The notes under the pieces are model-generated. The model was not told where the DNA came from. It saw only the letters and a list, made by a program, of their open reading frames with translations, and did not search any database. Of a DNA stretch of 64,000 nt, positions 2,740-28,115 are shown piece after piece (the first letter of the stretch is position 1; every line of letters starts with the position of its first letter). A program made the translations under genes and the position numbers. Where the stretch lies: NCBI GenBank assembly GCA_015056045.1, contig SVGZ01000008.1:1-64000 (forward strand). The letters run 5' to 3'. Source of the DNA: Clostridiales bacterium (GTDB lineage Bacteria; Bacillota; Clostridia; Christensenellales; Christensenellaceae).

Positions 2740-4593
2740 TTATTTCTTGATGATAGCGCCGAATTTGCACTTTTCGATACAAGCGCCGCACTTGAGGCAC
2801 TTAGCGGTATCGATCGTATGCGGATTGCGAACTGTTCCGGAAATAGCACCGGCGGGGCAAACTCTGGAGCAGAGTGTGCAGCCTTTGCACTTGTCGGGTT
2901 CGATGAAGTACTGGAGCAGAGCTTTGCAGACGCCAGCCGGGCACTTCTTATCGACGATGTGAGCGATGTATTCGTCACGGAAGTAACGGAGTGTGGAAAG
3001 AACCGGGTTCGGAGCTGTCTGGCCGAGTGCGCAGAGGGAGCTGGACTGGATATGAGCTGCGAGCTCTTCGAGTCTGTCGAGGTCTTCCATTTCGCCGTTG
3101 CCGCTTGTGATCTTGTCGAGGATCTCAAGAAGTCTCTTCATACCGATACGGCATGCTGTGCACTTGCCGCAGCTTTCATCGATGGTGAATTCGAGGAAGA
3201 ACTTAGCGATGTCTACCATACAGGTTTCTTCGTCCATGATGATGAGACCGCCGGAACCAACGATGGAACCAACTGCTTTTAAGCTTGCGTATTCGATCGG
3301 TGTATCAATGAGGGAAGCCGGGATGCAGCCGCCGGAAGGACCACCGGCCTGTGCAGCCTTGAACTTCTTGCCGCCGGGGATGCCGCCGCCGATTTCTTCA
3401 ACAACTGTGCGGAGTGTTGTACCCATCGGGATTTCTGCGAGACCTGTGTGGTTGATCTTGCCGCCGAGAGCGAATACTTTTGTACCTCTTGCACCTTCGG
3501 GACCATACTGTGCATACCATTCGCCGCCTTTTGTTAAGATCTGCGGAATGACGGAGTATGTTTCAACGTTGTTGAGAAGTGTGGGCTTTTCAAAGAGACC
3601 CTGGTTTGCCGGGAACGGAGGACGTACTCTGGGTTCGCCGCGCTTGCCTTCGATGGATCTCATAAGAGCTGTTTCTTCGCCGCAAACGAATGCGCCTGCG
3701 CCAAGACGGAGCTCGATATCGAAATCGAAGCCTGTGCCGAGGATGTTCTTGCCGAGGAGACCAAGTTCTCTTGCCTGTTCGATAGCGATGGTGAGGTGTT
3801 CAACAGCGATCGGGTATTCAGCACGAACGTAGATGTAGCCCTGGTTGGAACCGACAACGTAGCCTGCGATTGTCATAGCTTCGAGTACGGAGTGCGGGTC
3901 ACCTTCGAGAACGGAACGGTTCATGAATGCACCCGGGTCGCCTTCGTCTGCGTTGCAGCATACGTATTTAACGTCGCCCTTAGCAGCTCTTGTGAACTTC
4001 CACTTTAAGTGTGTGGGGAAGCCAGCGCCGCCTCTGCCTTTCAGACCGGAGATTTCGAGTTCCTTTAAGATTTCGTCTGCGGACATGGTGAGGAGAGCTT
4101 TTGCCAGTGCCTGGTAGCCGTCTCTTGCGATGTAATGTTCGATGTTATCGGGAGCGATAACGCCGCAGTTACGGAGAACGACACGTTCCTGAGCGCTGTA
4201 GAAGGGTGTTTCTGTATATTTGAGGATGCCTTCGCCCTGAACTGTTTCTTCATAGAGGAGTTCACGGATCGGGTTGCCGCCGATGATGTGCTCATCGATG
4301 ATCCTTTCGATGTTTTCCATCTTAAGCTTGGAATAGAAGCAGCCATCGGGCTGTGTGATCATGATCGGGCCTAATGCGCAAAGACCGAAGCAGCCTGTCT
4401 TGATAACAGCAACTTTGTCTGCGAGACCTTTTTCGTTGATCTGTCTTACGAGTTCTTTATAAAGATCGATACTTCCGGAGGAAGTGCAGCCTGTACCGCC
4501 GCAGATAAGGATCTGCTGTTCATAGCCTTCCATCTGGGCTTTTGCAACTTCTTTTAAAGCATGAAGTTCAGCAAGTGTATTGATTTTGCTCAT
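2740..4593 (-). CDS. hydB: NuoF-like flavin subunit of [FeFe] hydrogenase (HydB/HndC type)
   Basis: About 617 residues that bind NAD(H) and FMN and pass electrons to HydA. Visible parts: an N-terminal thioredoxin-like [2Fe-2S] domain (CGGTGCTSSGS, GCFGLCALGP), the NuoF core with FMN/NAD loops (GRGGAGFP, NADEGDPGAFMNR), an SLBB-type segment, a [4Fe-4S] site (ESCGKCTACR) and two C-terminal ferredoxin clusters (CKGCTLCSRVCP, CLKCGACIEKC). This long fused form is typical of bifurcating hydrogenases, not of complex I. I prefer the ATG at 4593 to the one at 4599: GGGAGG at 4602-4607 is 8 nt from the former but only 2 nt from the latter. It is the middle gene of hydCBA. Confidence 0.95.
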   Translation of the reverse strand: MSKINTLAELHALKEVAKAQMEGYEQQILICGGTGCTSSGSIDLYKELVRQINEKGLADKVAVIKTGCFGLCALGPIMITQPDGCFYSKLKMENIERIIDEHIIGGNPIRELLYEETVQGEGILKYTETPFYSAQERVVLRNCGVIAPDNIEHYIARDGYQALAKALLTMSADEILKELEISGLKGRGGAGFPTHLKWKFTRAAKGDVKYVCCNADEGDPGAFMNRSVLEGDPHSVLEAMTIAGYVVGSNQGYIYVRAEYPIAVEHLTIAIEQARELGLLGKNILGTGFDFDIELRLGAGAFVCGEETALMRSIEGKRGEPRVRPPFPANQGLFEKPTLLNNVETYSVIPQILTKGGEWYAQYGPEGARGTKVFALGGKINHTGLAEIPMGTTLRTVVEEIGGGIPGGKKFKAAQAGGPSGGCIPASLIDTPIEYASLKAVGSIVGSGGLIIMDEETCMVDIAKFFLEFTIDESCGKCTACRIGMKRLLEILDKITSGNGEMEDLDRLEELAAHIQSSSLCALGQTAPNPVLSTLRYFRDEYIAHIVDKKCPAGVCKALLQYFIEPDKCKGCTLCSRVCPAGAISGTVRNPHTIDTAKCLKCGACIEKCKFGAIIKK

Positions 4594-4608
4594 TGTCATA
4601 TCCTCCCT

Positions 4609-5112
4609 TTAGTCCTGATACTCTGCGAGGATCTTGTCAACATCATCCGGAACGAGGTTGCCATAGACCTTTTCGTTGATCGTCAAAACGGGTGCAAGAC
4701 CGCAAGCGCCGATGCAGCGGCAAGCTTCGAGGGAGAACTTACCATCGGGTGTGCATTCGCCTGCGCCGATGCCGAGTTTTTCGGAAAGTCTGTCGAAGAT
4801 AACGCCGGAGCCTTTTACGTAGCAAGCTGTACCGAGGCAAACGGAGATTCTGTACTTACCCTTCGGCTGGAGAGAGAAGAGAGAGTAGAATGTGACAACA
4901 CCATAAACATCGCTGAGAGAAACATCGAGGCCTTCTGCAACCATCTTCTGAACTTCGATGGGGAGATAGCCATAGATGCCCTGCGCTGCCTGAAGTACAG
5001 GCATAAGAGCGCCAGCCTGATCTTTATGCTGTTCGATGACTGCTTTCAAAGCAGCTTCCTGTTCGGGGGTGCCGTTGAATGCAGGACCGCCGCAGGAACA
5101 ATTGTTAGACAT
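4609..5112 (-). CDS. hydC: NuoE-like [2Fe-2S] subunit of [FeFe] hydrogenase (HydC/HndA type)
   Basis: A 167-residue thioredoxin-fold [2Fe-2S] subunit, first gene of hydCBA. The helical N-terminus with ALMPVLQAAQGIYGYLP and the cluster ligands CLGTAC and EACRCIGACGLAP match NuoE/HydC. It carries electrons between the flavin subunit and the hydrogenase. The chosen ATG gives MSNNCSCGG with GGAGG 7 nt upstream; an upstream in-frame start at 5163 would run almost into the promoter and has no ribosome site. The Cys-rich start (CSC) is unusual for the family but short. Confidence 0.93.
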   Translation of the reverse strand: MSNNCSCGGPAFNGTPEQEAALKAVIEQHKDQAGALMPVLQAAQGIYGYLPIEVQKMVAEGLDVSLSDVYGVVTFYSLFSLQPKGKYRISVCLGTACYVKGSGVIFDRLSEKLGIGAGECTPDGKFSLEACRCIGACGLAPVLTINEKVYGNLVPDDVDKILAEYQD

Positions 5113-5175
5113 ACAATATCCTCCTTGAAAATCGTTTGAATTTTCCAAAATTGCTATATACAAACTTCTGTGTTC

Positions 5176-5640: not shown

Positions 5641-5668
5641 AAAAAAACCGGCAGAGCTGCTGCCGGTT
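5640..5668 (-). terminator. Intrinsic terminator of the aldo/keto reductase cluster
   Basis: Read on the minus strand, AACCGGCAGC and its complement (5646-5668) form a G/C-rich hairpin followed by seven T residues. It lies 12 nt after the last reductase stop codon. Confidence 0.9.
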
Positions 5669-5680
5669 GATCTTTTGGTT

Positions 5681-6706
5681 TTAGTAGTTCAGCTGAATAC
5701 CCGGAACATCGAGTTTGATATCATCGAGCCATTCGACTTCTTCGGGTGTGAGGTCAAAGTTTGCACCAGCCATGGTATCCATGAGCTGATCCATATTGCT
5801 CGTTCCGAAGATGACGCCGCACTGTACCTTATTGCAGGTGAGATATGCATTTGCGACCATGGTTGCGGTTACGCCCGGATGAGCTTCGCAATATTCGAGG
5901 ATCTTCGCATATTTTGCTCTGTTTTCGGGGCAGTCGAACATCTTTCTTCTGGGGGATAATGTTTCCCATGTTTCTTCGCCGCTGTAAAGCTTGCTGAAGA
6001 GGCCCTTTGCCTGTGCGGTGAAAGCGATAACGGGGATCGGTGTTTCAAGATACTGCTGGTAAAGTGCAGGCTCTGTGATCGGGTTCATGATGGAAAGCGT
6101 TGCATCGGCTCTTCTTGCGAAATCTGTATAAGCATATGCCCACTGAATTTCGGAAATGCTGATCTCTGCCTGACCTTTGCTCTGTGCATAGGCATTTGCT
6201 TCGCGGATACGATCCATAGACCAGTTGGATACGCCGATCGCACGGACTTTGCCTGTCTTTGCGATCATGTCAAGTGTATCCATGATATAGGAAACGGGCA
6301 GTGTTTTGTCGTCTCTGTGGAGCATATAGACATCGATCGTCTTGAGGCCGAGTCTGTCATAGCTTGTATAGAAATCGCCAAGGATCGCTTCTCTTGTTGT
6401 GCGGAAGCGGATCATGCGGTTTTCGCTGTCGAGATCGGGGAAGCCGCCTTTTGTCAGGACGTAAACTTTGCCTTCGAGGTTTCTTGCGCGGATGTAATCG
6501 CCGACTGCCTGTTCTGCCAGGCCGTTGTCATAGAATCGCGCGGTATCAAAGAAGTTGCCGCCCATTTCGATGTATTTATCCATCATTTCAAAAACGAATT
6601 CGTTGCCTAAATTTCTTGCTTTTCTGCCGAGGCCGCTTGCACCAAGGATGAGCTTCGTTGCCTGAATTTCGCCGCCGTCGAGCGTTTTAATTTTTAAGTA
6701 CTGCAT
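5681..6706 (-). CDS. Aldo/keto reductase, paralogue 1 of 5 (last in cluster)
   Basis: A 341-residue NAD(P)H-dependent aldo/keto reductase with a TIM-barrel fold. The catalytic tetrad is visible as D54 and Y59 (FFDTARFYD), K86 (VLTKGG) and H130 (YMLHRDD). The cofactor-contacting segment IGVSNWS and the C-terminal phosphate-binding region (GVIFGTSNMDQL) are present. Such enzymes reduce aldehydes or ketones, including sugar-derived carbonyls; the substrate is not predictable. It is the most downstream copy of the array and has a longer tail (KLDVPGIQLNY) in place of the IEKYL ending of three sisters. AGGAG precedes the ATG. Confidence 0.88.
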   Translation of the reverse strand: MQYLKIKTLDGGEIQATKLILGASGLGRKARNLGNEFVFEMMDKYIEMGGNFFDTARFYDNGLAEQAVGDYIRARNLEGKVYVLTKGGFPDLDSENRMIRFRTTREAILGDFYTSYDRLGLKTIDVYMLHRDDKTLPVSYIMDTLDMIAKTGKVRAIGVSNWSMDRIREANAYAQSKGQAEISISEIQWAYAYTDFARRADATLSIMNPITEPALYQQYLETPIPVIAFTAQAKGLFSKLYSGEETWETLSPRRKMFDCPENRAKYAKILEYCEAHPGVTATMVANAYLTCNKVQCGVIFGTSNMDQLMDTMAGANFDLTPEEVEWLDDIKLDVPGIQLNY

Positions 6707-6730
6707 ATTGTTCTCCTGAAAATCCTTTGA

Positions 6731-7741
6731 TTATAAGTATTTTTCGATGTCGATATCGTCGAGCCATTCGACTTCTTCGGGTGTGAGTTCAAAATCTGCG
6801 CCCGCCATGGTGTCGAGGAGCTGATCCATATTGCTGGAACCGAAGATAACACCTGTCTCAACCTTGTTGCAGGTAAGGTATGCGTTTGCGACCATGGTTG
6901 CGGTTACGCCCGGGTGAGTATCGCAATATTCGAGGATCTTCGCATATTTTGCCTTATTTTCTGCGCAGTTGTACATCTGTCTTCTTCTGCCGAGTGTTTC
7001 CCATGTTTCCTTGCCGCTGTAGAGGTAGCTGAAAAGACCGCTTGCCTGTGCGGTGAAAGCGATGACCGGAACAGGTGTTTCAAGATACTGCTGATAGAGT
7101 GACGGTTCTGTGATCGGGTTCATGATAGAAAGCGTTGCATCGGCTCTTCTTGCGAAATCTGTGTACGCATAGCTCCACTGAATTTCGGAAATGGCGATCT
7201 CTGCCTGACCTTTGCTTCTTGCATAGGCATTTGCTTCGCGGATTCTGTCCATCGACCAGTTGGAAACGCCGATCGCGCGGACAAGACCGGTTTTGGCAAT
7301 GATATCGAGTGTATCCATGATATAGGAAACGGGCAGTGTTTTATCATCGCGGTGGAGGATATAAACGTCGATCTTCTTCATGCGGAGTCTGTCATAGCTT
7401 GTGAAGAAGTCGCCAAGGATCGCTTCACGGCTTGTGCGGTAGCGGATCATGCGGAATTCGCTGTCGAGATCGGGGAAACCGCCTTTTGTCAAAACGTAGC
7501 ATTTGCCTTCAGCCTGTCTTGCCTGCATATAATCGCCGACAGTCTGTTCGCTTGTACCGCCGCCATAGGAACGTGCGGAATCGAGGAAGTTGCCGCCCAT
7601 TTCTCTGTATTTATCGATCATGGCGAAAGCAGCTTCGTTGCCCTGTGCCTTTGCAATGCGGCCGATGCCTGCTGCACCAAAGATGAGTTTGGAAAGATGG
7701 AGTTCGCCGCCGTCTAATGTTTTAACTGTCAAATACTGCAT
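6731..7741 (-). CDS. Aldo/keto reductase, paralogue 2 of 5
   Basis: A 336-residue aldo/keto reductase with the tetrad D54, Y59, K86, H130 (FLDSARSYG, VLTKGG, YILHRDD). It is nearly identical over long stretches to the copy at 8850-9860, including the middle of the barrel (residues about 120-225) and even the ribosome site GGAGGCAACAxATG. This indicates recent duplication or gene conversion. It differs at the active-site loop (SARSYGGGTSE against TARFYGFGASE), which may change substrate choice. The gap to paralogue 1 is 24 nt, so they are probably co-transcribed. Confidence 0.88.
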   Translation of the reverse strand: MQYLTVKTLDGGELHLSKLIFGAAGIGRIAKAQGNEAAFAMIDKYREMGGNFLDSARSYGGGTSEQTVGDYMQARQAEGKCYVLTKGGFPDLDSEFRMIRYRTSREAILGDFFTSYDRLRMKKIDVYILHRDDKTLPVSYIMDTLDIIAKTGLVRAIGVSNWSMDRIREANAYARSKGQAEIAISEIQWSYAYTDFARRADATLSIMNPITEPSLYQQYLETPVPVIAFTAQASGLFSYLYSGKETWETLGRRRQMYNCAENKAKYAKILEYCDTHPGVTATMVANAYLTCNKVETGVIFGSSNMDQLLDTMAGADFELTPEEVEWLDDIDIEKYL

Positions 7742-7766
7742 GTGTTGCCTCCTTTAATGGATATTC

Positions 7767-8777
7767 TCAGAGATATTTTTCGATGTCGATATCGTCGAGC
7801 CATTCGACTTCTTCGGGTGTAAGGGTAAAATCTGCACTGGTGAGTGTGTCTTCGAGCTGTGCCTTAGTGCGGGAGCTGAAGATGAGGCCGGTTTCGAGTT
7901 TGTTGCAGGTGAGGTATGCGTTTGCGATCATGGTTGCAGTTACGCCGGGATGTGCTTCGCAATATTCGAGGATCTTTGCATATTTCGCTTTATTTTCAGC
8001 GCAATTATAGGCATCTCTGCCGCCGCGGAGTGTTTCCCATGTCTCTTCGCCGCTGTAAAGCTTGCTGAAAAGACCTCTTGCCTGTGCGGTGAAAGCGATG
8101 ACCGGGATCGGTGTTTCGAGGTACTGCTGATAGAGAGCAGGCTCAGTGATCGGGTTCATGATGGAAAGGGTTGCATCGGCTCTTCTTGCAAAGTCTGTAT
8201 ATGCATATGCCCACTGGATCTCGGAAATGGCGATCTCTGCCTGGCCTTTGCTTCTTGCATATTCGTTGGCTTCACGGATCCTGTCCATAGACCAGTTGGA
8301 AACGCCGATCGCACGGACGAGACCTGTTTTGGCGATCATATCGAGCGTATCCATGATATAGGAAACGGGCAGTGTCTTATCGTCGCGGTGAAGGATATAG
8401 ATATCGATCACTTTCATGCGGAGTCTGTCGTAGCTTGTGAAGAAGTCGCCAAGGATCGCTTCTCTTGTTGTGCGGTAGCGGATCATGCGGAACTGATCAT
8501 CAAGATCGGGGAAACCGCCTTTGGTTAAGACATGGACCTGTCCTTCGGCGCGTCTTGCCTGCATATAGTCGCCGACGATCTGTTCGCTTTCGCCGTAGCC
8601 ATAGAATCTTGCGGTATCGATGAAATTGCCGCCTTTTTCGCGGTAACTGTCTACCATTTCGAATGCAGCTTCTTTGCCGTCTCTTTTTGCGATGTCGCCG
8701 AGGCTGTCTGCGCCGTAGATGAGCTTGGAGAGTCTGAGTTCGCCGCCATCGAGAGTTTTAACGCTGAAATATTGCAT
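7767..8777 (-). CDS. Aldo/keto reductase, paralogue 3 of 5
   Basis: A 336-residue aldo/keto reductase with D54, Y59, K86 and H130 in the expected places. It is the most distinct of the four close copies at its two ends: the N-terminal loop reads YGADSLGDIAKRDG, and the cofactor phosphate-binding region reads LIFSSRTKAQLEDTL in place of the VIFGxxNMDQL of the sisters. That second change is in the region that contacts the NADP(H) 2'-phosphate, so cofactor preference could differ. The middle of the protein is almost the same as the sisters. Its ribosome site is AAAGGAAAG, unlike the GGAGG of its neighbours. It lies 25 nt upstream of paralogue 2. Confidence 0.87.
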   Translation of the reverse strand: MQYFSVKTLDGGELRLSKLIYGADSLGDIAKRDGKEAAFEMVDSYREKGGNFIDTARFYGYGESEQIVGDYMQARRAEGQVHVLTKGGFPDLDDQFRMIRYRTTREAILGDFFTSYDRLRMKVIDIYILHRDDKTLPVSYIMDTLDMIAKTGLVRAIGVSNWSMDRIREANEYARSKGQAEIAISEIQWAYAYTDFARRADATLSIMNPITEPALYQQYLETPIPVIAFTAQARGLFSKLYSGEETWETLRGGRDAYNCAENKAKYAKILEYCEAHPGVTATMIANAYLTCNKLETGLIFSSRTKAQLEDTLTSADFTLTPEEVEWLDDIDIEKYL

Positions 8778-8801
8778 AATAGATCTTTCCTTTTAATTTT
8801 G

Positions 8802-8834
8802 AAAGAGGTCCCGATATACGGGGCCTCTTTTTTT
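8802..8834. terminator. Hairpin terminator inside the reductase cluster
   Basis: An 11-bp stem (8802-8812 with 8820-8830, one G-U pair) has a long T-run on the plus strand and only TTTC on the minus strand. On the minus strand, where the reductases are read, it is probably a partial terminator that lowers expression of paralogues 1-3. Confidence 0.55.
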
Positions 8835-8849
8835 GAGAGTTAATTTAAC

Positions 8850-9860
8850 TTATAAGTATTTTTCGATGTCGATATCGTCGAGCCATGCAACTTCTTCGGG
8901 TGTGAGGTCGAAGTTTGCGCCAGCCATGGTGTCAAGAAGCTGATCCATGTTGCGTGCGCCGAAGATAACGCCGCACTGTACCTTATTGCAGGTGAGGTAT
9001 GCGTTTGCGACCATTGTTGCGGTTACGCCCGGATGAGCTGCGCAGTATTCAAGGATCTTGTCATACTTCGCTCTGTTTTCAGCGCAGTCATACATCTTTC
9101 TGCCGCGGGAAAGTGTTTCCCATGTTTCTTTGCCGCTGTAGAGGTAGGAGAAGAGACCGCTTGCCTGAGCTGTGAAAGCGATGACCGGAACGGGTGTTTC
9201 AAGATACTGCTGATAGAGAGCAGGCTCTGTGATCGGGTTCATGATGGAAAGGGAAGCGTCAGCTCTTCTTGCGAAGTCTGTGTAAGCATAGCTCCACTGA
9301 ATTTCGGAGATAGCGATTTCAGCCTGACCCTTGCTTCTTGCATAAGCGTTAGCTTCGCGGATTCTGTCCATAGACCAGTTGGAAACGCCGATTGCACGGA
9401 CAAGACCTGTCTTTGCGATCATATCGAGTGTATCCATGATGTAGGAAACGGGCAGTGTTTTGTCGTCTCTGTGGAGAATGTAGATGTCGATCTTCTTCAT
9501 GCGGAGTCTGTCATAGCTTGTGAAGAAGTCGCCCAAAATAGCTTCTCTTGTTGTACGGAAACGGATCATACGGAACTGATCATCAAGATCCGGGAAGCCG
9601 CCTTTTGTTAAGACGTAGCACTTGCCTTCAGCCTGTCTTGCCTGCATATAGTCGCCAACGGTCTGTTCGCTTGCACCAAAGCCATAGAATCTTGCTGTAT
9701 CGAGGAAGTTGCCGCCCATTTCTCTGTATTTATCGATCATAGCGAAAGCTGCTTCGTTACCTTCCTTTTTTGCAACGGAACCGATGCCGCCTGCACCAAA
9801 GACGAGCTTGGAAAGGTGAAGTTCGCCGCCGTCGAGAGTTTTAACTGTTAAATACTGCAT
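8850..9860 (-). CDS. Aldo/keto reductase, paralogue 4 of 5
   Basis: A 336-residue aldo/keto reductase with tetrad residues D54, Y59 (FLDTARFYG), K86 and H130. The sequence differs from paralogue 2 at only scattered positions, mostly near the active-site loops and the C-terminal cofactor region, where it instead resembles paralogue 1 (KVQCGVIFG and MDTMAGANFDLTPEEV). This patchwork suggests recombination among copies. GGAGG lies 6 nt before the ATG. A partial terminator follows, and 40 nt separate it from paralogue 5. Confidence 0.88.
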   Translation of the reverse strand: MQYLTVKTLDGGELHLSKLVFGAGGIGSVAKKEGNEAAFAMIDKYREMGGNFLDTARFYGFGASEQTVGDYMQARQAEGKCYVLTKGGFPDLDDQFRMIRFRTTREAILGDFFTSYDRLRMKKIDIYILHRDDKTLPVSYIMDTLDMIAKTGLVRAIGVSNWSMDRIREANAYARSKGQAEIAISEIQWSYAYTDFARRADASLSIMNPITEPALYQQYLETPVPVIAFTAQASGLFSYLYSGKETWETLSRGRKMYDCAENRAKYDKILEYCAAHPGVTATMVANAYLTCNKVQCGVIFGARNMDQLLDTMAGANFDLTPEEVAWLDDIDIEKYL

Positions 9861-9900
9861 TTGTTGCCTCCTGAGATGTTTATATAAATCAAATTAGTTT

Positions 9901-10905
9901 TTAAATGTTGTCGAACCATTCGATCTCTTCCTGCGTAAGTGTGAGATCTGTATTCGAGAGAGAATCGGCGATTTCTTCTTCGGTCATGCAGCCGATGATC
10001 GGTGCACAATCGATCTTGTTGCTCGAAAGGTAGGCAAGAGCAACAGCCGCCGGGGAATGCCCTGTCTTGTCGCAGAATTCTTTCATTTTCAGCCAGCGCT
10101 TTTCGTTTTCGGGGAAAGCATACCATCTGTTTTTCTGCGGGACTTCATCCCATGTGTATGTGCCGTTATAGAGAAGGGAGAAAAGACCCCTTGCCTGCGA
10201 AGAAAAAGCAACGACCGGAATGGGATTTTCGATATATTTCCGGTAAAGCGCATCATCCATGATGGAAAGCGTCTTATCGTTTCTTGCGACGACGTCTGTG
10301 TAAGCATAACTCCACATGATCTCGGAAACGGCAATTTCTACCTGACCTTTGCTTCTCGCATAGGCATTTGCTTCGAGGATGCGCTCCATAGACCAGTTGG
10401 AAACGCCGATAACTTTGACAAGACCTGTCTGTTTGATTTCTTCCAAAATATCCATGATATAGGAAACGGGTTTGGAAGGATCATCTCTGTGCAGCATCCA
10501 GACATCGATCGGGCCTTTCTGCAGCCTGTCATAGCTTGTATAGAAATCGCCTAAAATCGCATCTCTGTTGATGCGGAAGCGGATCATATTGCTGATATCC
10601 TTGACATCAAGATCGGGGAAACCGCCTTTTGTGATGACTTTGATCTCCTTTTCGCATTTGCGGGATTTCATGTAACGGGAAATAATGCCTTCGTTAAAGC
10701 CGAAATGCTCCTGATCAACTTCGCCGCCATAAGCACGGCCGGTATCGATCGTATCGCCGCCGAGTTCGCGGAATTTATCGATATAGGCAAATGTGCCTTC
10801 TTCGCCGAGTTTATTCCAGATGTTATGAAGGGAAGCTGTACCAAGAATGATCTTCGAAAGCTTTAAATCCTCTCCGTTAACTGTCTTGAGGGTTAAAAAT
10901 TTCAT
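9901..10905 (-). CDS. Aldo/keto reductase, paralogue 5 of 5 (first in cluster, divergent)
   Basis: A 334-residue aldo/keto reductase, clearly the oldest branch of the array. It keeps the tetrad (IDTGRAYGGE for Asp/Tyr, ITKGGFP for Lys, WMLHRDD for His) and IGVSNWS, but carries an insertion after the Tyr (GGEVDQEHFGFNEGI) and differs throughout. The start at 10905 (MKFLTLKT) aligns with the MQYLTVKT of the sisters and has GGAGG 4 nt upstream; an in-frame start at 10965 is unlikely because it lies in the leader. It is the first gene after the promoter at 10994-11022, so it probably heads the operon. Confidence 0.87.
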   Translation of the reverse strand: MKFLTLKTVNGEDLKLSKIILGTASLHNIWNKLGEEGTFAYIDKFRELGGDTIDTGRAYGGEVDQEHFGFNEGIISRYMKSRKCEKEIKVITKGGFPDLDVKDISNMIRFRINRDAILGDFYTSYDRLQKGPIDVWMLHRDDPSKPVSYIMDILEEIKQTGLVKVIGVSNWSMERILEANAYARSKGQVEIAVSEIMWSYAYTDVVARNDKTLSIMDDALYRKYIENPIPVVAFSSQARGLFSLLYNGTYTWDEVPQKNRWYAFPENEKRWLKMKEFCDKTGHSPAAVALAYLSSNKIDCAPIIGCMTEEEIADSLSNTDLTLTQEEIEWFDNI

Positions 10906-10993
10906 TTGTCCTCCGTATTTTGTGCAGCCAATAAGACTGATATTGAAAAATACCATCGGATGCATGCACTATTTTTACTTCTAATGTGATTTG

Positions 10994-11022
10994 ATTTTAT
11001 CATAGATAAAATGAAAAATCAA
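10994..11022 (-). promoter_or_regulatory. Promoter of the aldo/keto reductase cluster with overlapping palindrome
   Basis: Minus-strand TTGATT (11017-11022) and TAAAAT (10994-10999) are 17 nt apart. A perfect inverted repeat, TTTTATC-ATA-GATAAAA (10995-11011), covers the -10 box and part of the spacer, as repressor operators often do. No regulator gene is adjacent. Confidence 0.6.
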
Positions 11023-11067: not shown

Positions 11068-11096
11068 TAAAAAAGGATGACATAAGCTGCCATCCT
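11068..11096 (-). terminator. Intrinsic terminator of the lipoprotein gene
   Basis: On the minus strand a 9-bp stem AGGATGGCA/TGTCATCCT (11074-11096, loop GCTTA) is followed by six T residues. It lies 20 nt after the stop codon at 11116. Confidence 0.88.
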
Positions 11097-11115: not shown

Positions 11116-12033
11116 TTAACCAACGGTCAAAAGATCGATGGAAAGTTTTGCCGCAGCATCGGTAAGCTGTTTTTCCGCATTACCTTCGATCGGTGCTGTG
11201 CCGATGAGGTAAATGCGTGTGCCCGCGGGGTCATTGATAACGAAGCTCAAAAGACGGATTTCTTCGCCGGAGATACTTGTTGTGCCGTTATCTTCGGTAT
11301 AAACGAGATCCCATACGGAAGAAGAATAGAGAAGCGGTTCTTCCTTCGGGAAGTTCTGTTCATAGGCGTCGATGCTGAAAGTCAGCGTTTCATCCAGCTT
11401 GCTGCGGAGAAATTCGGGTACGATCTCTTCCATCAGCTTGTCGATCGCAGCAGCCTCGTCAATGCCGCCGGCTGTGACGAAAAGGTTTTCTACGAATATG
11501 TTGTAATCCGCTTCAACAGGGCAAAGGATTTCCAGCTTTGTGAGGATATCCGCATCCGCTTCGTAAAGCTCTGTACCGTCGGAAAGAATGGCGACTTCAT
11601 AGCCGTCTTCAGCATGCAGCCATTTTTCAGGCATGATCTCATAGGTGTTTTCGCCGATCGTGACTTCATAGAGCGGTGTGAAAAGGAAAGGATATTCGAT
11701 AGGATCGGCATTTTCGATGTATGATAAAAGCTCTGCCGTATCTTCCTGCGAAATATCTGCGGAAGCTTCGCCGATCAGGCTCAAAACACTGCCTGCACCG
11801 GTAAGCGGAGGTGTTTCTTCGGGGATCTCTACGGAAGCTTCGGGTGTTGTTTCGTTTTCCATTTCAAGACCGCCGATGCTTTCTTCGGTTTCCTCGGGTG
11901 CGGCTGCAACGGATTCAAATTCGACCGTTCCTTCGCTCTGGCTGACTTCGTTTTCGGGTGTTTTTGCACAGCCAAATGCCGTTGCCAAGGCTAAAAGCAG
12001 GCTGATGATCGCTAAAAATCGTGTATTTTTCAT
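11116..12033 (-). CDS. Putative lipoprotein, unknown function
   Basis: A 305-residue exported protein. It starts MKNTRFLAII with a hydrophobic signal and a lipobox-like LATAFGC, so Cys is probably lipidated after cleavage. A low-complexity acidic linker rich in Glu, Thr and Pro follows (residues about 24-90), then a globular domain of mixed strands. The start at 12033 is chosen because it begins the signal peptide and has GAGAGG upstream; a frame extending to 12099 would put charged residues first. I do not recognise the domain. It is monocistronic, with its own terminator, and divergent from the zinc-ribbon gene. Confidence 0.75.
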   Translation of the reverse strand: MKNTRFLAIISLLLALATAFGCAKTPENEVSQSEGTVEFESVAAAPEETEESIGGLEMENETTPEASVEIPEETPPLTGAGSVLSLIGEASADISQEDTAELLSYIENADPIEYPFLFTPLYEVTIGENTYEIMPEKWLHAEDGYEVAILSDGTELYEADADILTKLEILCPVEADYNIFVENLFVTAGGIDEAAAIDKLMEEIVPEFLRSKLDETLTFSIDAYEQNFPKEEPLLYSSSVWDLVYTEDNGTTSISGEEIRLLSFVINDPAGTRIYLIGTAPIEGNAEKQLTDAAAKLSIDLLTVG

Positions 12034-12187
12034 GCTAAAAATTCCTCTCGGTCCGTTTTCTATGTTCATCATTTTATCACAGCGAACCCGATGCTTCAAT
12101 AAACGGGCATTCCCGACTTGTGAATTTCTTGTGATTAATTCGTAAAGAAAAAACAGCCGTATTTATCCTGAAAATATTTGATACCTG

Positions 12188-26961: not shown

Positions 26962-26997
26962 AAAAAAAGCTCTCCGAAATGGAGAGCTTCATTTTTT
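26962..26997. terminator. Bidirectional intrinsic terminator
   Basis: Stem AAGCTCTCC (26967-26975 with 26981-26989, loop GAAAT), with an A-run before it and TTTTTT after it. It is the same hairpin core as at 25195. It separates the transporter (+) and the Fe-S aldo/keto reductase (-). Confidence 0.9.
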
Positions 26998-28024
26998 AGT
27001 CTACGCTGACTTTCTTTGCCAATACGTTTCTGTAATCTTCGAGGTTTTTGCGGAGAAGTTCGGGCGTATTGAGCGAATAAGGGCAATGCGAGGTGCAGTT
27101 GCCGCAGCCGATGCAGTTTTCGATCTTGTTCATTTCTTCCTGCATAGCCGGTTCGAGGAACTTTGCCGAAGGTGCACGGCGAAGGAGAAGGGACATTCTT
27201 GCCGCTGTCGGGATGTTGATCTCCGCAGGGCAAGGCAGGCAATAACCACAAGCACGGCAGAAATTGCCGATCAGCTCTGCACGGTCTTTTGCGATGATCT
27301 CCTCAAGCTCTGCATCGAGTACAGGCGGGTTTTTTCCGTAAGAAATGAATTCTTCAAGCTCTGTCATGCGCTGGATACCCCAGATTGGTGCAACATTTTT
27401 GAACTGTGCGATGAAGGCATAGGCAGCTTTTGCGTTTGTGATAAGTCCGCCCGAAAGCGCTTTCATGGCAAGAACGCCCATATCTTTTTCTTCGCAAAGC
27501 TTGATCAGCTCGATATCCTTATCGCCTGCGAGGTAGCAGAACGGGAACTGCAGCGTATCGTAAAGACCGGAATTAACGGCTTCGAGCGCATTGTCGAGTC
27601 TGTGGTTGGTGATGCCGATGAAGCGGATCTTGCCCTGTTTTTTTGCTTCGAGCATGGCATCGTAAAGACCGTCTGCACCGCCGGGTTTCGGGACGAACTT
27701 CGGGTTATGGAACTGATAGATATCGATATAATCGGTTTTTAATCTCTTCAGCGATGTTTCGAGGTCGCTCCAAAAACCTTCTACGGTTGTGGAAGGTGTT
27801 TTTGTTGTGATGATGATATTTTTTCTGACATCGGAAAGCGCATAGCCGAGCTTTTCTTCGCTGTCTGTATAGCCATAGGCGGTGTCGAAAAGTTCAAAGC
27901 CATTGTCATAGGCGTGGCGAAGGATCGTTTTTGCCGTTTCCTTATCAACTCTCTGGATCGGGAGTGCGCCGAAGCTGTTTTTGTTGACGATGATGCCGGT
28001 TCTTCCAAGACGTACTTTTTCCAT
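26996..28024 (-). CDS. Aldo/keto reductase with C-terminal [4Fe-4S] ferredoxin domain (COG1453 type)
   Basis: A 342-residue fusion: aldo/keto reductase barrel (FDTAYGYTDSEEKLG with catalytic Asp/Tyr, ITTKTPS with Lys, YQFHNPKF with His) and a ferredoxin-like tail with ACGYCLPCPAEINIP and NCIGCGNCTSHCPY. The tail could feed electrons from ferredoxin. It is not part of the five-gene array and belongs to another branch. The start MEKVRLGRTG at 28024 has GGAGG 5 nt upstream; an upstream in-frame start at 28066 has none. Confidence 0.9.
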   Translation of the reverse strand: MEKVRLGRTGIIVNKNSFGALPIQRVDKETAKTILRHAYDNGFELFDTAYGYTDSEEKLGYALSDVRKNIIITTKTPSTTVEGFWSDLETSLKRLKTDYIDIYQFHNPKFVPKPGGADGLYDAMLEAKKQGKIRFIGITNHRLDNALEAVNSGLYDTLQFPFCYLAGDKDIELIKLCEEKDMGVLAMKALSGGLITNAKAAYAFIAQFKNVAPIWGIQRMTELEEFISYGKNPPVLDAELEEIIAKDRAELIGNFCRACGYCLPCPAEINIPTAARMSLLLRRAPSAKFLEPAMQEEMNKIENCIGCGNCTSHCPYSLNTPELLRKNLEDYRNVLAKKVSVD

Positions 28025-28115
28025 ATTTTCCTCCGATAAATTCTGCTTGTTTTCGGTCATTTTCATACGATACTTTTATGATAGCAAAAGTGTTTTTTTC
28101 GGTCAAGCGGAAAAC

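Follow-up and report, generated by a model that had tools for sequence, protein, structure and literature searches.

A genus-restricted tandem expansion of aldo/keto reductase genes in a Christensenellaceae genome, with divergence probably driven mainly by point substitution

Five aldo/keto reductase (AKR) genes that lie in tandem in the genome of a gut or rumen Christensenellaceae most probably represent a genus-restricted expansion, whose copies owe most of their divergence to point substitution in the presence of purifying selection. The array consists of five intact open reading frames (ORFs), all on the minus strand and arranged head to tail, from position 10905 down to position 5681 of the window, by which we mean the whole stretch of 64,000 nucleotides that was analyzed. 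Gene E (9901-10905, 334 amino acids), identified from ORF calls and Pfam, is the first of the array and is followed by genes A (8850-9860), B (7767-8777), and C (6731-7741), each encoding 336 amino acids, and gene D (5681-6706, 341 amino acids). The start of gene E at 10905 comes after GGAGGACAA; its longest ORF starts at 10965, and the upstream ATG there is a possible alternative start. The spacers E-A, A-B, B-C, and C-D measure 40, 72, 25, and 24 bases, respectively. An earlier note on this DNA had described five complete tandem reductase genes, four of them close copies, and our comparison agrees: genes A to D are 76 to 90% identical at the protein level (A-C, 90%; B-C, 83%; A-B, 82%; A-D, 81%; C-D, 80%; B-D, 76%), and gene E shares about 52% identity with them (51 to 53%). 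Third codon positions follow the same order, with identities of 0.63 to 0.69 among A to D and 0.47 to 0.49 between E and A to D.

All five proteins matched Pfam family PF00248 over the full domain (E ≤ 4.3e-45; 154 to 179 bits against a cut-off of 24). AKRs use a catalytic Asp-Tyr-Lys-His tetrad, and every one of the five proteins carries the same tetrad-like set, D54, Y59, K86, and H130. An AlphaFold model of the gene A product has the AKR TIM barrel fold (mean pLDDT, 86.8), and the best solved matches of this (β/α)8 barrel are all AKRs, with TM scores of about 0.63 to 0.80. The array proteins thus certainly belong to the AKR superfamily. By default, this fold acts on small aldehydes and ketones, and the array sequences are consistent with soluble NAD(P)H-dependent carbonyl reductases. 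The best PDB matches of the gene A model were DepB (7utf and 8hwn), AKRtyl (8jwn), and IolS (1pyf), at 20 to 24% identity. By convention, AKR nomenclature expects at least about 40% identity within one family; the array proteins share only 20 to 24% with solved members of AKR11, AKR12, and the DepB type in fold alignments. No NCBIfam model of a named AKR family or equivalog (YdjG, DkgA/B, Kv beta, PRK10376, and others) reached its threshold; the best score was 56 bits where the cut-off is 550. DepB of Rhizobium leguminosarum (7utf) and the DepB of 8hwn, both 3-keto-DON reductases, are the best match in sequence and fold, but at 21 to 23% identity in the fold alignment, activity on mycotoxins should not be assumed. 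Bacillus IolS/AKR11A (1pyf) and YhdN/AKR11B (1pz1) also share the fold and match in both sequence and structure, at about 20 to 21% identity. The same fold is found in the tylosin reductase AKRtyl (AKR12D1; 8jwn), whose structure is NADPH bound and whose identity to the array proteins is about 22%; AKRtyl is an octameric enzyme (PMC10923870).

The restricted distribution of the array emerged from a comparison with related genomes. The nearest relative of the host, whose own assembly spans 2.07 Mb and is 80% complete, is the Christensenellaceae MAG RGIG6122 from sheep omasum, which belongs to the same genus (locus L027; JAFWWA010000009.1). This MAG, 69% complete and with a contiguous AKR locus, is the only other sampled genome of the genus. 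This locus holds two AKR genes rather than five: an ortholog of gene E (L027:6980-7987; 75% amino acid identity) and one A-type gene (77% identity to A). Homologs of two other genes are found near both loci, one encoding a decarboxylase subunit (77% identity) and the other a lipoprotein-like protein (29.5% identity; E = 1e-25). The lipoprotein-like gene adjoins the array at 11116-12099 of the window and has no Pfam match; its sister homolog (L027:5893-6819) is inverted relative to the AKR genes, unlike the arrangement in the host. We found no array-type AKR in 16 other genomes of the family at E ≤ 1e-60, and searches of 396 genomes of the order at 1e-55 and 391 genomes of the class at 1e-60 gave no match outside the genus. 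With gene E as the query, the nearest members in the class were 37 to 38% identical. The array is therefore neither old nor fixed among the relatives sampled, and the duplication proposed in the earlier note is borne out as a tandem expansion confined to the genus. A literature search returned nothing on AKR arrays in Christensenellaceae.

In a tree of homologs, which leaves out locus L030, all A-type genes grouped together (support, 99) and joined the E pair (100). Genes A, B, and C formed a group with a support of 90, which D joined with a support of only 60. Third-position identity between A to D and the sister ortholog is 0.47 to 0.49, below the values within A to D. Part of this gap arises because the two genomes differ in GC content (47% versus 53% at the two loci), which inflates silent divergence between species: gene E and its sister ortholog show a third-position identity of 0.41, lower than the 0.47 to 0.49 of the older within-genome pairs of E with A to D. 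These comparisons suggest that the duplications are young and that those giving rise to A, B, and C most likely followed the species split, as the one giving rise to D may have. Gene D could instead predate the split and have been lost in the sister lineage, since an AU test on the branching order of A to D and the sister ortholog rejected none of six trees, including one with D outside the ortholog.

The copies differ far more at their ends than in their middles, as the earlier note had observed, and this is true at the protein level. Amino acid-variable sites make up 52% of residues 1 to 48, 10 to 17% of residues 97 to 240, and 45% of residues 289 to 336, and the middle of the gene is also the most conserved part in comparison with the sister ortholog. 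When synonymous and nonsynonymous changes were compared by position, as that note had proposed, pairwise dS (NG86) over eight blocks of about 44 codons averaged 0.56 to 0.91 with no dip in mid-gene, and dN went from 0.26 at the 5' end to 0.04 in the middle and 0.17 at the 3' end. Similarly, the variable share of silent codons ranged from 0.38 to 0.57 along the gene, and that of residues fell from 0.52 to as low as 0.10. Because dS is flat while dN varies about sixfold, the near-identical middles reflect a conserved protein and not homogenized DNA. Pairwise omega values of 0.09 to 0.23 are all well below 1.

Alternatively, gene conversion or unequal crossing-over between neighbors might have produced mosaics, with A resembling C up to about codon 245 and D beyond; we judge this unlikely. 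In residues 1 to 244, A is nearer C at 37 amino acid sites and nearer D at 6, and it is equidistant afterwards (8 versus 9). This partial resemblance of A to C at the protein level is what holds of the mosaic structure claimed previously. The silent sites show no mosaic: in the first part, A is nearer C at 21 silent codons and nearer D at 20, and in the second part the count is 5 for each. Likelihood segmentation with codon permutation for one breakpoint gave P values of 0.085, 0.010, 0.097, and 0.387 under four model and taxon settings (overall, 0.01 to 0.39); the codon model placed a single breakpoint at codon 249 (P = 0.01), but the GTR and five-taxon tests were nonsignificant. Site-level PHI on four sequences was significant (P = 0.003 to 0.04), a signal that weakens once each codon, with its linked changes, is treated as one unit: codon-level PHI gave P values of 0.12 to 0.84 (ABCD) and 0.05 to 0.28 (ABCDO). 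Runs tests gave 0.12 to 0.80. GENECONV-like analysis found an A-D run at codons 289 to 298 (global P = 0.019) and a B-D run at codons 102 to 109 (P = 0.02). The 3SEQ-like triplet tests were borderline when applied to replacement sites and gave no signal at silent ones; the best, A/B/D at amino acid-variable codons (P = 0.0008; about 0.02 when corrected for 24 tests), counts sites private to B, a copy with a run of replacements at residues 294 to 318, and rate variation can mimic such a signal. The three possible groupings of A to D are supported almost equally, by 21, 21, and 19 sites, which fits conversion but is expected of either a near-star tree or much recombination. The silent-site test gave a P value of 0.10 on the real data and has good power for recent tracts of at least 150 bp, as it recovered a simulated recent conversion in 32 of 40 trials at 150 bp and in 39 of 40 at 200 bp. 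Taken together, window identity, PHI, GENECONV-like, 3SEQ-like, and segmentation analyses give no firm support for conversion. Uniform divergence was the pattern that the earlier note had itself named as contrary to conversion, and divergence is uniform at silent sites. Recent conversion of 150 to 200 bp is unlikely; short or old events may have occurred.

The copies also differ at positions with a likely role in cofactor binding. In DepB from Rhizobium, NADPH binding is favored by Arg-290 and Gln-294, and the R290E substitution increases the NADPH Kd 11-fold but hardly alters NADH binding (PMC9427786). These residues align without gaps with array residues 303 and 307, a correspondence that depends on a presumed 20-residue offset (a tag) in the deposited DepB chain. 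Residue 307 is Gln in A to D. At residue 303, A and B carry Arg, and C, D, and the sister ortholog carry Ser; gene E has Met at 303 and Glu at 307. By analogy with DepB, A and B would be expected to show a stronger preference for NADPH than C and D. Residue 239, which adjoins the position aligned with the Lys of the IolS GKY motif, is Lys in two copies (B and D) and Tyr in the other two (A and C), such that all four combinations of residues 239 and 303 are present across the four copies. Near the catalytic Tyr59, residue 61 is F, Y, G, or N and residue 63 is A, E, T, or L.

Such differences might mean that positive selection retuned the substrate and cofactor pockets of single copies, and the larger numbers of private replacements in B (19) and D (27) than in A (4) and C (6) point the same way. 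We nevertheless consider this doubtful. With loop classes assigned by hand from the secondary structure of the gene A model, the active face, formed by the beta-alpha loops, is variable at 32% of its residues and the opposite face at 38%; the corresponding shares are 39% for the N-terminal hairpin, 24% for helices, and 22% for strands. The active face carries no significant excess of replacements over the rest (Fisher P = 0.37) or over the opposite face of the barrel (P = 0.57). The earlier suggestion that changes gather at the active-site loop and the cofactor region thus fails for the active face, and its cofactor part narrows to the pattern at residue 303, which is real but without enrichment at cofactor positions. 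The low pairwise omega values likewise speak against retuning. About equally doubtful is the opposite idea, that the copies are functionally equivalent and serve gene dosage alone. Strong purifying selection, an intact tetrad in every copy, the common orientation, and the short spacers would all fit dosage, but B and D differ from the others by 17 to 24% at the protein level, the residues at the cofactor positions differ, and D ends in a C-terminal tail (LDVPGIQLNY) unlike that of the other copies.

The array is framed by signals consistent with joint transcription. Shine-Dalgarno-like GGAGG or AGGA motifs precede the gene starts. A consensus scan identified a candidate sigma-70-type promoter upstream of gene E on the minus strand (10994-11022; TTGATT-17-TAAAAT, with TG before the -10 element), located between gene E and a terminator-like hairpin (11074-11096, minus strand) that separates the array from the upstream lipoprotein-like gene. 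Since promoter-like sites across the region occur at chance frequency (9 seen versus 8.9 expected), position is the main support for this candidate. The five genes would probably be read as one transcript that begins upstream of E and ends at a terminator behind D. This intrinsic terminator (5646-5668, minus strand) directly follows gene D and has a 9-bp stem and a TTTTTTT tail. The A-B spacer (8778-8849, minus strand; 72 bases) contains an imperfect, GC-rich hairpin, GAGGCCCCG..CGGGACCTC, at 8803-8832, where the plus strand has a T run; the terminator scan scored no terminator there, and the hairpin is a possible attenuator inside the array. Behind the terminator, on the downstream side, lie co-directional genes of the NuoE-like and NuoF-like types, in which additional 4Fe-4S domains are present (2740-5163).

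Across its roughly 2 Mb, the host genome contains 19 matches to AKR domains. Within the window, a further AKR gene at 26996-28066 encodes a protein with a C-terminal cysteine-rich, ferredoxin-like tail and is unlike the array genes in kind. Elsewhere, neighboring AKR genes are found on contig C4 (14558-17161; L037 and L003), comprising a DkgA-like pair with 61% identity and a third gene, and on contig C6 (6428-8315; L038), where a pair is 51% identical. A 965-amino-acid open frame on contig C4 that resembled a fused triple AKR was rejected, as it resolves into separate neighboring ORFs.

In the account that we favor, point-substitution divergence after tandem expansion, an older pair of E and an A-type gene, common to the sister species, would be the starting state. 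Local duplications in rapid sequence would have added three A-type copies in the host lineage, after which point substitution would have been the main source of divergence among the copies, with purifying selection acting strongly on the barrel core and less so on the two ends. The resulting array would raise the amount of enzyme, and its members would probably differ somewhat in cofactor or substrate preference. A more ambitious proposal, to which we give little credence, is that A to D form a natural two-by-two set at the cofactor site (Lys/Tyr239 by Arg/Ser303), carried on one transcript, with paralogs graded from NADPH to NADH use; if true, such a set would let the cell reduce carbonyls from whichever cofactor pool is in surplus. 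Tandem expansions of carbonyl reductases are a common outcome of gene duplication, and in this sense the array is ordinary and its superfamily known. Its lesson is that paralogs with near-identical middles and varied ends need not imply gene conversion. For this uncultured Christensenellaceae genus, the array offers four natural variants of one scaffold in which to study how cofactor preference may drift after duplication.
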